Below are positions 58,055-64,000 of a stretch of 64,000 nt of DNA, in pieces. The stretch is from Pseudomonadota bacterium (lineage in GTDB: Bacteria; Pseudomonadota; Gammaproteobacteria; Acidiferrobacterales; Acidiferrobacteraceae), in the NCBI GenBank assembly GCA_021819245.1, contig JAKARI010000002.1, positions 61,639 through 125,638 of the forward strand. Reading direction: 5' to 3'. The notes under the pieces were generated by a model, which searched no databases, was not told where the DNA came from, and saw nothing but the letters and a program-made list of their open reading frames with translations. Within the stretch, counting starts at the first letter, position 1. Every line of letters starts with the position of its first letter. The translations under genes and the position numbers were made by a program.

Positions 58055-58131
58055 GGCTATGTAGCTCAGCTGGTTAGAGCGCGGCACTCATAATGCTGAG
58101 GTCGGTGGTTCGAGTCCACCCATAGCCACCA
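58055..58131 (+). tRNA. tRNA-Met (CAT), CCA encoded; island integration site
   Basis: GGCTATG...CATAGCC acceptor, CGGCA-CTCATAA-TGCTG anticodon arm, GGTGG-TTCGAGT-CCACC. Confidence 0.95.
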
Positions 58132-58263: not shown

Positions 58264-58962
58264 CTAATCGCAGAAAGTTATGGGGGGGGGCGGGTAATTG
58301 GTGCTCCACCAAGATGGAATAGGGGCCGCCTCACCCACTAATTTGCCATCAAGGAAGTAGGCGAAAGCATTGTAGCTCCCTCTATCGTCCTCGGAGACAT
58401 CCGTGCTGTTATCTACCACCAGAGCGGCCGAAACCAGATTTACCGCCTGGGCAAAGTTGCGTAGCACGCGAGGGTACCGTTCCCGGACTTTTTCAGGCCT
58501 TACATTGTGGCCGCCACGGGCCACTCTGTGTTGTACCCGTTCCAGGGATTTGTCGGCCGAACTCAAGCCGATTGCGAGCAGTACCACATAATAGCCACAG
58601 GCGACCGCATTGGCCATGAAGCCGAGCTTGTCGCCAACTGGGTCGGACAGGACTGTCTCCATGCTGAACGATATGCGGTCTTTGATATAGCCTAGGCGGA
58701 GGTGTGTGGCCTCCTTGGCTGCGCGCAGGGAGAACTCCTCGTCGGTGAGTTGAGGATCTTGCCAATCGGTGCGGATCTGGCGCTCGATCGCGTCAGCGTC
58801 GATATGAAAAGAGAGGTGCTCTTCAAGGGCGTCCCGCAGGTATTCCTTGTAGCAGGTCGATTTTCCGGCACCGTTGTGGCCGGCGATGACGACCAGTAAT
58901 GGGCCACTGCGAGAGGCTTGGTCGGCGTCGACACGCTCTACAAAGGATTCGAAGAGACTCAG
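58264..58962 (-). CDS. Zeta-toxin/COG4185-like P-loop kinase
   Basis: Open frame LSLFESFVERVDADQ...GPLLVVIAGHNGAGKSTCYKEYL...FSMETVLSDP...VARGGHNVRPEKVRERYPRVLRNFAQAV...VVDNS; no ATG/GTG/TTG before Walker A, CTG at 58962 is the best candidate start. Confidence 0.75.
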   Translation of the reverse strand: MSLFESFVERVDADQASRSGPLLVVIAGHNGAGKSTCYKEYLRDALEEHLSFHIDADAIERQIRTDWQDPQLTDEEFSLRAAKEATHLRLGYIKDRISFSMETVLSDPVGDKLGFMANAVACGYYVVLLAIGLSSADKSLERVQHRVARGGHNVRPEKVRERYPRVLRNFAQAVNLVSAALVVDNSTDVSEDDRGSYNAFAYFLDGKLVGEAAPIPSWWSTNYPPPPITFCD

Positions 58963-58965
58963 GGG

Positions 58966-59673
58966 TTACCCCCTCCCCGCACGCTCTTTCTCGTTCGCAG
59001 CCAGTTTTGCAAACGCCCCCTTCATGCTCTTCACGGCGCCGGTAGCGCGCCGATTTTCGTCGGCCTGCAGGTGCGGGCCCATGGCGACAAGTATGTCGCG
59101 GGCCCGGCTCACGGCCTCCTCGCTGAGATTCGTCTCGCACAGTAAATCAAACACGCTCTTGCCGTTTGGCAAGGCGGCGTGGAGCCATCGGCCGCGAGGC
59201 GGCGTGTGCTTAGACCAATCGAGGGCGATGAGGTAGAGCCGCTTCAGGCGGTCGCGATCATTGTGAGCCCGGATCGCCTCGATGTCGGTCAGGGACTCCC
59301 ACTGGTAAACGGTGGGTCGGCTGACGCATAGCACCTGCGCGGTGTCGCTGATCGTGAGGCGAAATGTCTTGCGCACAGTGTCGACAATGTTAGCTGGTGG
59401 GGGCACAGGCACACAGGATTTAGTCCTGTTAGACGTGAGCTGCACGACGAGCCAGGCATTGACGGCGCCTGTTGCCGCCATGCCGTAGATCTGGACTGGC
59501 CCATTTTGGAGATTGAGTCCGGGACGAAGATTGGCAACGATCAAGCCGATGTATTCGTTAGCGTCGTTGACATGTACCGCGTCGCCAGTGTTGTAAGAGG
59601 TTGTACTGGCTCCAAGCTGTTCCAGCAACGCCTGCCGAGCAATAGCCTCGCGCAGACCTTCTTGAGCTGTCAT
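58966..59673 (-). CDS. HTH-domain protein, candidate antitoxin/regulator
   Basis: FRLTISDTAQVLCVSRPTVYQWE helix-turn-helix; same strand, ends 3 nt before candidate kinase start; ORF may start at 59715. Confidence 0.7.
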   Translation of the reverse strand: MTAQEGLREAIARQALLEQLGASTTSYNTGDAVHVNDANEYIGLIVANLRPGLNLQNGPVQIYGMAATGAVNAWLVVQLTSNRTKSCVPVPPPANIVDTVRKTFRLTISDTAQVLCVSRPTVYQWESLTDIEAIRAHNDRDRLKRLYLIALDWSKHTPPRGRWLHAALPNGKSVFDLLCETNLSEEAVSRARDILVAMGPHLQADENRRATGAVKSMKGAFAKLAANEKERAGRG

Positions 59674-59675
59674 TT

Positions 59676-60512
59676 TCAGCACTGGGTTTCTTCCTCGGTA
59701 GTTGTTTGCATCCATTCGCGTTCAGCGAGTGGCGACATGATACGCCGAAAGGACTGCGACATATCGGCGCGGAGGCGATCGAGTTCGTCGCCAATAGCGG
59801 TGGCGGCGAAGGGGCGGTTGACCATGCGCCAGCGATCCATGTCCAGAACCGCGGACAGGCCGCTGGCCGACATGGCGGCGAAGTGGGTAGGCAGGACAAC
59901 TGAGTCCTGCAGGTCCGGAGGCAACGCGGCGACGCCGAAACCACGTCCATATTGAACGCGCAACTGACCGCCATCCTCGCGCGGGAAGTCATAAAGATTG
60001 AAGGCCACCGATGATTGTTCCCCCAATACGTCAGGAGATTTGCCCAGTCCGCCGAGGAAGTAATCCTCCGGCACATGGCCGTCAGTGGGAACAATGAAGT
60101 CGATGTAGCGCAGACCAAGCCGGACCACTTGAAGTTGGCGGTCTTCACAGAGAGCGGCCATGAAAGTGCGCCACTGGCCGATGAAGTGGCGGGAATCCTG
60201 ATAGGCGGAACTCAAAAAGGTCAGGCTCCCCGTTTGGAGACGGATCACCTCGGTGTTCTCATCATTCCGGAGATCCAGGCCGACAGGCTGCATCGATGTT
60301 GGCATGGGGGTAGCGGCAGCCGCTTGGCCAATGACTACTGATACAGGGGTCAGTTGGCTGATATGGGGGTGACTCCGGCCGGTTGCATTGAGGATGCGCT
60401 CCGAAGTCACGCTGGGCGCGGTAACAGGTTCGTGAATGAATCTGACTTGGGCGACCACGAGGGCGAGGGGGGCATTGGGCCAGCGTCCAAGTCCGTGACG
60501 TGAAGTGCTCAC
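59676..60512 (-). CDS. TIGR04255-family-like protein
   Basis: LGRWPNAPLALVVAQVRFIHEP...VVRLGLRYIDFIVP motifs; GTG at 60512 or TTG at 60575 as start. Confidence 0.65.
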   Translation of the reverse strand: MSTSRHGLGRWPNAPLALVVAQVRFIHEPVTAPSVTSERILNATGRSHPHISQLTPVSVVIGQAAAATPMPTSMQPVGLDLRNDENTEVIRLQTGSLTFLSSAYQDSRHFIGQWRTFMAALCEDRQLQVVRLGLRYIDFIVPTDGHVPEDYFLGGLGKSPDVLGEQSSVAFNLYDFPREDGGQLRVQYGRGFGVAALPPDLQDSVVLPTHFAAMSASGLSAVLDMDRWRMVNRPFAATAIGDELDRLRADMSQSFRRIMSPLAEREWMQTTTEEETQC

Positions 60513-60584
60513 TGTCTCTCCGATCAAAGGGCTTCGTCTGTCTGTGGGGCTGTATGGTCTGGCATTTAAAACCAATTTTACAGG

Positions 60585-60629: not shown

Positions 60630-60648
60630 TTTACACATGAGGTTTGAC

Positions 60649-60921
60649 ATGACACATCCTGCTAACGACCCCCCCGAGCAGTCGCATGCACCGGTTTATA
60701 ACATCACGATCAACGCCGATGCGGTGACGGTACACCAGGCACGGCTCTCCTTCGACGAGGTCTGCCGTCTAGCGTTTCCGGCTGGTCCGTTCGGCCCCAA
60801 AATCCGCTACACCGTGACTTACAGCCTGCCGGATGGCCACGAAGGCTCAATGGTTCAGGGTGACACGATCGAGGTCCTAGACGGGGAGGTATTCTATGTC
60901 GGCAATACGGATCGCTCGTAG
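60649..60921 (+). CDS. Single-domain ubiquitin-like (multiubiquitin-family-like) protein
   Basis: YNITINADAVTVHQARLSFDEVCRLAFPAGPFGPKIRYTVTYSLPDGHEGSMVQGDTIEVLDGEVFYVGNTDRS; GAGG RBS before ATG 60649 (alternative start 60637). Confidence 0.75.
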   Translation: MTHPANDPPEQSHAPVYNITINADAVTVHQARLSFDEVCRLAFPAGPFGPKIRYTVTYSLPDGHEGSMVQGDTIEVLDGEVFYVGNTDRS

Positions 60922-62095
60922 TCCCGCTCTTCAGCGTCTGCGCGACGAGGGATACTCGGTCGAAATCCGGAACGGATCGGCAGGTCCGATTCTTTTGATT
61001 CACGATGTCCCTTACGTCAATGCGCAACGGCAGGTCTGCCGTGGCACGCTGGTATCGCCCCTGGAACTCAAGTCGGATCAGGCCGCCGAACCGGTACCGG
61101 TCGGCAAGCACCAAGTCTGGTTCATTGGGGAGCACCCGTGCAACCCGGATGGCTCCGTCATTGGGGAAATTCAACACTCATCCGGAAAACAGGACTTCGG
61201 GGGCAATGTAGTGACCGATCACGACTTTTCCGCAAAGCCGCCCAATCAGAAGCCTTACCCGAACTACCACGCCAAGATGACGACCTATGTCAATCTCCTG
61301 CTGGGTCCGGCCCAGCATGTGGAACCCGGAATCACAGCCAAGCTCTTCAAACCCTATGTGAACATGGATGATTCGGTCTTCAAGTATGGCGACTCGGCCA
61401 CCAGCCGGTCAGGAATCGGGGCCGTGGCTAGCAAGTTGGCCATGAACCGGATCGCCATCATTGGGCTGGGCGGGACGGGCTCATATCTCCTCGACCTAGT
61501 AGCCAAGACCCCTGCGCGGGAAATCCACCTCTACGATGGTGATGAGTTCCACCAGCATAATGCTTTCCGGGCACCGGGAGCGCCGGCTTTCGAAGAACTG
61601 GCCGGACCGAAGAAAGTGGATTACTTTGCTGGGATCTACAGCAAGATGCGGCATGGCATCATCCCGCATGCCGTGAACATTACGGCCGAGAATCTTGCGG
61701 AATTGGCCGGCTTCGACTTCGTGTTCGTCTGTGTGGACAAGCCGGTTGTCAGGAAGGTCATCCTTGAAGGACTGAGAGGGCTGGGGGTGCCGTTTATCGA
61801 CGCCGGGATTGACGTGCAGAAGCAGGGCGAAGAAGGGCTTTTCGGTCAATGCCGTGTGACGCTGGGCACGCCGGAAAAGAACGACCACATCGAGAAACGG
61901 ATTTCCTACGAACAGGGTAGGGTTAATGATCTGTACGTCTCGGACATCCAGGTCGCTGACCTGAACGCAATGAACGCCGTGATGGCCGTCCTGCGATGGA
62001 AGAAGTACGCCGGCTTCTATCAGGATGATCAGCGGGAGCATCATTCCGTCTACACTATCGGCATTCACTCGCTAACTAAGGATGAAAAGGCGTGA
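60896..62095 (+). CDS. E1-like ThiF-fold adenylating enzyme with N-terminal DUF6791-like domain
   Basis: N-terminus LQRLRDEGYSVEIRNG...DVPYVNAQRQVCRGTLVSPLEL...HQVWFIGEHPCNPDG; C-terminus IAIIGLGGTGSYLLDLVAKTPAREIHLYDGDEFHQHNAFR, FVFVCVDKPVVRK. Confidence 0.85.
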   Translation: MSAIRIARSPALQRLRDEGYSVEIRNGSAGPILLIHDVPYVNAQRQVCRGTLVSPLELKSDQAAEPVPVGKHQVWFIGEHPCNPDGSVIGEIQHSSGKQDFGGNVVTDHDFSAKPPNQKPYPNYHAKMTTYVNLLLGPAQHVEPGITAKLFKPYVNMDDSVFKYGDSATSRSGIGAVASKLAMNRIAIIGLGGTGSYLLDLVAKTPAREIHLYDGDEFHQHNAFRAPGAPAFEELAGPKKVDYFAGIYSKMRHGIIPHAVNITAENLAELAGFDFVFVCVDKPVVRKVILEGLRGLGVPFIDAGIDVQKQGEEGLFGQCRVTLGTPEKNDHIEKRISYEQGRVNDLYVSDIQVADLNAMNAVMAVLRWKKYAGFYQDDQREHHSVYTIGIHSLTKDEKA

Positions 62096-62544
62096 GGCGC
62101 ACCCGAATCAAGCCCCGCTACGTCGAGTTGATGCCTCCCTCGCTTGAGGAGGGGGTACTCTACATTTCAAAGAAATTCTCGACGGCGGCGCACAAATGTT
62201 GCTGTGGGTGCGGTACCAAGATCGTTACGCCTTTGAAGCCGACGGATTGGGTGCTGACCGAGTCCAGGGCGGGAGTATCCCTTGATCCATCAATTGGTAA
62301 CTGGAACCACCCATGCCAGTCCCATTACGTCATTCGACGGAACCGCGTGGTCTGGGCCGGCCGGATGACCAAGGCTGAAATCAATTACGGACGGTCACTG
62401 AGCGACGCGGCTAAACATTTCTACTATGGAAGGCGCGTGGACGCGCGGAACCTAGTGTCGCCCTTAACCCCATTTACTGAGGAAGTTTCACCTCAGAAGA
62501 AGAAGGGATGGTGGACCAGAATTATCCAATGGTTCCTGCCCTAA
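62092..62544 (+). CDS. DUF6527-like Cys-rich protein
   Basis: LEEGVLYISKKFSTAAHKCCCGCGTKIVTPLKPTDWVL...VSLDPSIGNWNHPCQSHYVIRRNRVVWA; GTGA overlap with E1 stop. Confidence 0.78.
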   Translation: MRRTRIKPRYVELMPPSLEEGVLYISKKFSTAAHKCCCGCGTKIVTPLKPTDWVLTESRAGVSLDPSIGNWNHPCQSHYVIRRNRVVWAGRMTKAEINYGRSLSDAAKHFYYGRRVDARNLVSPLTPFTEEVSPQKKKGWWTRIIQWFLP

Positions 62545-62797
62545 CGGCGTCCCCTCTCATGAGCAGCGGCGCTTCGATCTGGGTTCGATTTGCGGGCAAG
62601 CACGCGAGCCTTGTGCAGGCCACATACACCTGCCGGAGCGTTAAGAAACGCCCTGCGTCATGCGGCACTTTTGCGACACTTCCCATGCACAACAATGCGC
62701 TTTAGTGCACGAAAGGTGGGTAAAAAACGTGATTAACTATATGAAATAACACAGAAGTTTGTGCACAGAGCGGCGTTGCAATGAACTATGGTTCGCC

Positions 62798-62860
62798 CTC
62801 ATAATGCTGAGGTCGGTGGTTCGAGTCCACCCATAGCCACCAATGAAATCAAGCACTTAG
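62798..62860 (+). repeat. Att-like direct repeat copy 2 (duplicated 3' half of tRNA-Met)
   Basis: CTCATAATGCTGAGGTCGGTGGTTCGAGTCCACCCATAGCCACCA identical to 58087-58131, then AAATCAAGCACTTAG shared. Confidence 0.95.
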
Positions 62861-62978
62861 CAACATCTACCTCAGGCGCACGCCCGCCAGACTCCACTGA
62901 GAGCCCGCCTATGGCCCGGGTGAGTGCCTGCGCCATTTGCTAGGCTCATGGCCACAGTCTTCCGTGGACCCCGTAGAT

Positions 62979-64000
62979 ATGGCCTCCATTACGAAAACCA
63001 AAGGCAGGTGGCAGGCGCGCGTGCGCCTCCAAGGGCACAACTTGCAGTGCAAGACCTTCGATGCGCGCCACGAGGCCATGATTTGGGCCCAGGACACGGA
63101 GACGGTGTTGCGCAAACGCTCTCCTGGCGCCGAGGAGGCGCGGCGGCTGGCGACGACGCTGACTCTGCGTGGCATGCTCCAGCGTTATGAGAACGAGGAC
63201 CCCCCGCAAAAGGTCGGCCGAGCGCGAGCGCTACATGATGCGCAATCTGCGGGCCGAGACCGACCTCGTCGACAAACCCATCGGCAAAATTCTTCCCAGC
63301 GACATCAGCACCTGGCTCACCAAACGGCGCCAGTCGGTTGCCGAAGGGACGGCGCTGCGGGAGTGGTGCCTGCTTCAGCATGTGTTCGAGGTGGCGCGCC
63401 GCGACTGGGGCCTGACCGTGGACAACCCGCTCAAGGAGGCGCGGCGCCCGAAGCCCGCGCCCGCGCGGGAGCGGCGCCTGGAGCCCGGCGAAGAAGCCTT
63501 GCTGTTGGCGGCGTGCGGTACGGCGCGCGTCCCCTGGCTTACACCGCTCGTCTGCCTTGCCATCGACACCGCCATGCGTCAGGGTGAACTCCTGTCGCTC
63601 ACATGGGCGGATGTCAGCGCGGACAGGAAGTATGTGACTCTTGCCAGTCAATCGACGAAGACCTCGAAGGCGCGCACCGTGCCTCTTAGCCCACGAAACC
63701 AGCGCATGCTGGCGAGCCTGCGACCTAGGGACGCGTCCCCCTCAGGCCGTCTGTTTTCCTTGACGCGAAATGCCGTCCGGCTTGCGTGGACGCGCACGCG
63801 AGAGCGTGCCGGCCTTACCGATTTGCGCTTCCATGACTTGCACCACGAAGCGACCAGCCGCTTCTTTGAGATGGGGCTCGACACCATGGGGGTCGCTGCC
63901 ATACCCGGCCACGAGACACTGGAGATGCTGAAGCGCTATGCGCATCTGCGCACAAAGAACATCGCCGAAAAATTGAAGTGGCCGCCCGATGTGCGTGCCG
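62979..64000 (+). pseudogene. Tyrosine recombinase/integrase, apparently frameshifted, truncated by window end
   Basis: MASITKTKGRWQARVRLQGHNLQCKTFDARHEAMIWAQDTE (frame 1); after ~63213 continues in another frame SAERERYMMRNLRAETDLVDKPIGKILPSDISTWL...DTAMRQGELLSLTWADV...FHDLHHEATSRFFEMGLDTMGVAAIPGH. Confidence 0.8.

Follow-up and report, generated by a model that had tools for sequence, protein, structure and literature searches.

The window analysed here is a stretch of 64,000 nucleotides from a bacterium of the family Acidiferrobacteraceae (Gammaproteobacteria; contig JAKARI010000002.1 of assembly GCA_021819245.1). It carries a cassette of three genes on the plus strand, which encode a ubiquitin-like protein (Ubl), an E1-like enzyme and a protein of the DUF6527 family. 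The features of the cassette are:

60637-60921, plus strand: Ubl gene, from its first ATG; single beta-grasp domain, product ending in ...FYVGNTDRS directly before the stop
60649, plus strand: alternative start of the Ubl gene, the next in-frame ATG
60896-60921, plus strand: 26 nt shared by the end of the Ubl gene and the start of the E1 gene
60896-62095, plus strand: E1-like gene, whose product has DUF6791 at residues 11-166 and, fused to it, a ThiF adenylation domain at residues 179-306
61934-61936, plus strand: codon of E1 Tyr347, a candidate non-cysteine catalytic residue
62092-62095, plus strand: 4-nt overlap (GTGA) of the E1 and DUF6527 genes
62092-62544, plus strand: DUF6527 gene (PF20137)

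The three products are 94 (Ubl), 399 (E1) and 150 (DUF6527) residues long. An earlier note, made from the letters of the sequence, had described three tightly coupled genes; the open reading frames bear out this layout with both overlaps, and every motif quoted for the three proteins was found in them. The note had started the Ubl gene at 60649, which is a valid in-frame ATG, although the first ATG is at 60637. The family calls made in it are backed by profile scores far above the curated Pfam cut-offs: Multi_ubiq (PF14452) on Ubl residues 21-89 with 38 bits (E 1.9e-9; cut-off 24.5), DUF6791 (PF20590) and ThiF (PF00899) on the E1 with 165 bits (E 1.7e-48; cut-off 25) and 42.9 bits (E 4.3e-11; cut-off 28.1), and DUF6527 on the third gene with 81.2 bits (E 5.1e-23; cut-off 23.6). 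Over its entire length the E1 corresponds to NCBIfam PRK06153.1-4 (489 bits). PADLOC gave weak matches to E1-E2 models, confined to the ThiF core of the E1, and no match for the Ubl or the DUF6527 protein. The trio of the window is a genuine Ubl/E1 cassette without an E2 or a JAB peptidase.

In a scan of GTDB genomes, relatives turned up in at least 580 stretches, from bacteria and archaea, of which 80 were kept. The three families co-occur far above chance: among the 120 E1-like ORFs of the fetched loci, 8 of which come from JAB-type or otherwise different loci, the Ubl lies directly upstream in 112 and both partners are present in 102. The overlap of Ubl and E1 is exactly 26 nt in all 112 loci where the two adjoin, a count that includes loci repeating one genome (the reduced set has 99 loci), and the E1 starts with ATG in 110 of them. 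The overlap of E1 and DUF6527 is 4 nt in 65 of 94 loci. The Ubl falls into single (45), double (20) and triple (33) length classes in 98 loci, so the single Ubl of the window is not special. The note was right that the operon has a single Ubl domain and lacks an E2 and a JAB, and a Prok-E2_E relative was found in none of the 99 homologous loci; the same loci gave only two weak, distant JAB matches. Nor did the rest of the source genome (~91% complete) yield such a partner: the two E2 profiles searched, Prok-E2_E and Prok-E2_B, found no E2, and the sole JAB match is RadC-like.

The best solved relative of the Ubl is the last domain of PDB 9cd2 (ZDHYS365), a multi-ubiquitin protein that belongs to the same Ubl subfamily (E 1.5e-61 for the whole profile) and has the C-terminus TDKS. 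Its 222 residues hold more than one beta-grasp domain; the window Ubl has one, matching the last 81 residues. In homologous loci T-x-[K/R/Q]-S immediately precedes the stop of the Ubl, with few exceptions, and this tail is fixed from archaea to Bacteroidota. The terminal Ser is present in 98 of 99 loci and is encoded by all four TCN codons (TCG, TCT, TCA, TCC), while the same bases give R, L, H or P at residue 8 of the E1. In the codon analysis of the overlap, the terminal Ser scored 0.08 bits against 1.65 bits for E1 residue 8, and the Thr of the tail 0.16 against 1.18 bits for the E1 residue that overlaps it. The tail is fixed while residues in the E1 frame vary freely, which shows selection on the Ubl frame and not on the E1 frame; the idea that the C-terminal conservation is a by-product of the E1 start was rejected on the same variation. 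Since the gene stops exactly at T-x-[K/R/Q]-S, C-terminal trimming is apparently unnecessary.

The adenylation site of the E1 is complete, as read from the sequence: G190, G192, G193, D214, N222, R225 and K240 are present in 100% of 98 E1s, and D281 in 98% of them. Tyr347 is likewise invariant in the 98 E1s. The AF2 model of the E1 has a pLDDT of 92.5, and its best match in Foldseek is Citrobacter BubCD (E 6.5e-14); judged from the aligned length, the match falls within the E1 part of BubCD. When the C-terminal halves were aligned as profiles (probability 93.6), Tyr347 paired with an invariant Tyr of the JAB-E1 enzymes. When a JAB-E1 was aligned by HMMER with the three deposited BubCD sequences, 9ea4 and 9ea5 had Tyr in that column, and 9eav had Phe; the chain of 9eav is named D104A/Y370F and belongs to a BubA-BubB complex. 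The residue changed by the depositors is therefore kept in the DUF6791 enzymes, the role of Y370 in BubCD being read solely from its mutation in the deposited complex. In the DUF6791 domain H72, P81, G86 and S112 are invariant in the 98 E1s. The domain alone had no significant match among PDB sequences. By hhalign it scored 10.5 against 11 Prok-E2_E-like domains (reversed control 12.3) and 16.7 against the JAB domain (reversed control 14.3), which supports neither relationship; E2 homology of DUF6791 was rejected as a profile similarity, with a score no better than the reversed control.

The DUF6527 protein has a metal-binding pattern, C36-x3-C40-x34-C75-x2-H78, which 87 sequences keep without or almost without change. 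These four residues are common to DUF6791-type and JAB-type homologues; Cys38 and His34 never vary in the DUF6791 type, which does not hold for the JAB type. The AF2 model (pLDDT 87.5) matched no PDB fold at E <= 0.001, and the sequence had no significant match among PDB sequences.

Among described systems, Iyer, Burroughs & Aravind 2006 (PMC1779556) reported an operon type 6e with one to three Ubl repeats and a metal-binding partner, in which the E1 has at its N-terminus either a JAB or, in one subset of operons, an uncharacterised domain ('domain X'); one species (Amac) was listed with a solo Ubl. The cassette type is like this subset in its one to three Ubl repeats and its metal-binding partner. 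JAB is absent from the window E1, and DUF6791, which takes its place, fits domain X by the description of that paper and may correspond to it. The printed metal motif of type 6e is H-x(2)-C with x(35-38), whereas the window DUF6527 has C-x(2)-H after x(34). Bub (Citrobacter BubA / BubB / BubCD) shares the ThiF-type E1 of closest fold, the Tyr and the multi-Ubl family, and DUF6527 is also the last gene of JAB-type operons; the cassette differs in having no BubB-like E2 and no JAB, in carrying DUF6791 in place of JAB in the E1, and in a Ubl that ends in T-x-[K/R/Q]-S and not in FG. CBASS Cap2 and Bil are alike only in the ThiF core of E1 type, to which the weak PADLOC matches belong; unlike CBASS type II (Cap2) and Bil, the cassette has no Cys-type E2, JAB or CD-NTase in the operon. 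E2/JAB operons (L130, L132-L134) run Ubl - E2/UBC - JAB-ThiF - phosphotransferase - DUF6527. The Ubls of the JAB type end in FG, FGGGV or FGHGTY, which is consistent with trimming of those Ubls; on the natural reading, JAB would trim them to Gly. The phosphotransferase between E1 and DUF6527 in L130, L132, L133 and L134 (TCAD9/APH in L130) has no counterpart in the compact type. On the minus strand of L042, a locus of an uncultured archaeon, a JAB-ThiF E1 of another system lies ~3.7 kb from a DUF6791 cassette.

The cassette sits in an island of ~4.7 kb between a tRNA-Met gene and a repeat of its 3' end, with the following additional features:

58055-58131, plus strand: tRNA-Met, integration target (ARAGORN, Rfam)
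58966-59715, minus strand: helix-turn-helix protein, possible regulator or antitoxin (weak HTH matches)
59676-60575, minus strand: TIGR04255-family protein, divergent, same island (NCBIfam, E 9.4e-28)
62795-62860, plus strand: second copy of the tRNA-Met 3' end, far attachment site (66 nt, 94%, repeat search)

Relatives keep the tRNA-Met and its upstream flank, and two of them, G012 (L147) and G001 (L148), have att-like repeats at other distances (5.3 kb and 15.4 kb from the tRNA-Met) with other cargo, which marks the site as an integration hotspot. Just beyond the far repeat (62860-64000) a frameshifted tyrosine-recombinase-like gene was seen by eye; its N-terminal ORF has no Pfam match, and it may be a remnant of the island integrase. 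The TIGR04255 and HTH genes form, with a zeta-like P-loop kinase, a divergent module (58264-60575, minus strand), and L015 and L080 keep this module beside their cassettes. The kinase frame of the window has no ATG, GTG or TTG ahead of the P-loop. A CapP-like ImmA/IrrE gene, nearly always divergent, lies upstream in 28 of 99 loci; the island of the window has no CapH/CapP pair. Such neighbours agree with the report that PF14452 genes adjoin COG2856-type 'TA' loci in 70% of cases (PMC4963859) and with the control of Bub operons by CapH and CapP (PMC13373217). In one clade, whose Ubls mostly end in TVQS or TIQS, a same-strand gene lies directly upstream of the Ubl, and relatives of it occur in 18 of 99 loci (L008, L009, L010, L043, L051, L056, L060, L061, L063, L065, L068, L079, L083, L087, L089, L092, L094, L095). 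In L008, the member scanned, its product joins an IrrE-like peptidase domain with a UvrD helicase and a PD-(D/E)XK nuclease. Twelve of these 18 loci also have a gene of ~190 aa with unknown product before it.

Bub uses ester-linked intermediates, and ubiquitin-type tagging is usually taken to need an E1, an E2 and a trimmed, Gly-ended tag. The cassette is read here, with about an even chance of being right, as a self-contained module for conjugation of the Ubl to proteins, kin to Bub and type 6e, that would act by adenylation and then by ester transfer through Tyr347 to a target amine. The ThiF domain would adenylate the carboxylate of the C-terminal Ser of the Ubl, the acyl group would move to a residue other than cysteine and form an ester intermediate, most likely on the invariant Tyr347, and the Ubl would pass from there to an amine on the target. 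DUF6791 would stand in for a separate E2-like protein and hold the Ubl tail or the target in position, which is functional guesswork, and the DUF6527 zinc protein, common with the E2/JAB type, could serve in deconjugation or in target choice. Carried on mobile DNA, the cassette probably answers stress or DNA damage, and possibly phage. The three families, the adenylation residues, the BubCD-like fold, Tyr347, the fixed Ser tail as against the FG-type ends of JAB-type Ubls, the missing E2, the 26-nt overlap and the CapP-like neighbours all count for the module. That the DUF6791 cassettes have a distinct chemistry, in which a single E1, with no E2, processing peptidase or Gly-Gly, activates a fixed C-terminal Ser and transfers the Ubl via an invariant Tyr, is rather doubtful.

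Cys82 of DUF6791, in the motif GE-PC---G, is found in 92 of the 98 E1s beside the invariant H72, G78, P81 and G86, and this counts against a reading by Tyr only. It could be the acceptor in a thioester chemistry, with DUF6791 a strongly diverged E2-like domain of the UBC/RWD kind and Tyr347 structural only. The order of elements in the AF2 model of DUF6791 (helix - four strands - loop - strand pair - helix) is compatible with UBC/RWD, and by eye the motif FS-KP--GY-DYY-Km resembles FSWH---W-P--D-L of E2-like proteins; however, the cysteine is replaced by H, R, F or Y in the remaining six E1s, and the profile comparison with 11 E2-like domains gave no support, and thioester transfer is considered unlikely.

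It is quite improbable that no protein is tagged, and that the E1 instead modifies the activated Ubl tail, or transfers it to a small molecule or nucleotide, with the Ubl as a carrier. MccB and PaaA, which act on peptide tails, are among the fold matches of the E1, and at its C-terminus the Ubl has a conserved polar residue and not Gly, but the closest fold and sequence match of the E1 is BubCD, the title of Ye et al. 2026 (cited in PMC13373217) names protein conjugation, and DUF6527 is common to the E2/JAB-type operons. A role as toxin-antitoxin-like or addiction cargo, in which the Ubl would modify a partner in order to control it and defence would play no part, could explain why the cassettes of the window, L015 and L080 adjoin divergent TIGR04255, HTH and zeta-like kinase genes, as well as the frequent 'TA' neighbours of PF14452 genes; yet the three-gene unit stays the same from locus to locus and its neighbours do not, and such a role is very unlikely. 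On the conjugation-module reading, the operon type is widespread and apparently works without a separate E2 and without trimming, unlike the usual ubiquitin picture. The trio of the window, as the smallest natural set, is easy to rebuild, which makes the minimal size of such a pathway directly testable, and two Pfam domains of unknown function gain a candidate function to look for.

The earlier note had presented the cassette as a minimal variant; that this form is rare or special is not supported, given the arrangement described in 2006, the share of single-Ubl loci and the number of GTDB stretches. It is a common, mobile Ubl-conjugation module of known kind and no singular discovery; what merits laboratory work is the chemistry that it suggests, with an untrimmed Ubl ending in Ser and an E2-free E1 that keeps the tyrosine. 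NCBI-style plasmid annotation already calls the trio 'multiubiquitin / ThiF / DUF6527'. To call it under-described was fair: DUF6791 and DUF6527 are not mentioned anywhere in the open-access literature searched, and no description of the chemistry and purpose of the operon type was found in the searchable literature. New here are the fixed 26-nt overlap, the selection on T-x-[K/R/Q]-S in the Ubl frame, the absence of E2 in 99 loci, Tyr347 and the tRNA-Met island. The 80 stretches kept come from Pseudomonadota, Bacteroidota, Acidobacteriota, Chloroflexota, Cyanobacteriota, Planctomycetota, Verrucomicrobiota, Nitrospirota and others, with Nitrosopumilus and one other archaeon among them, and the E1 matched on 115 plasmid records. 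Phyla are mixed in the E1 tree: 12 changes are needed for Pseudomonadota, and well-supported branches force at least 6 of them. DUF6791 is present in none of 13 other genomes of the source genus; this sporadic distribution suggests mobility. A phage origin was rejected, as no phage record matches. Five viral-labelled contigs do match, two of them sharing the 26-nt overlap, and carriage by viral or misassigned contigs is thus rare.
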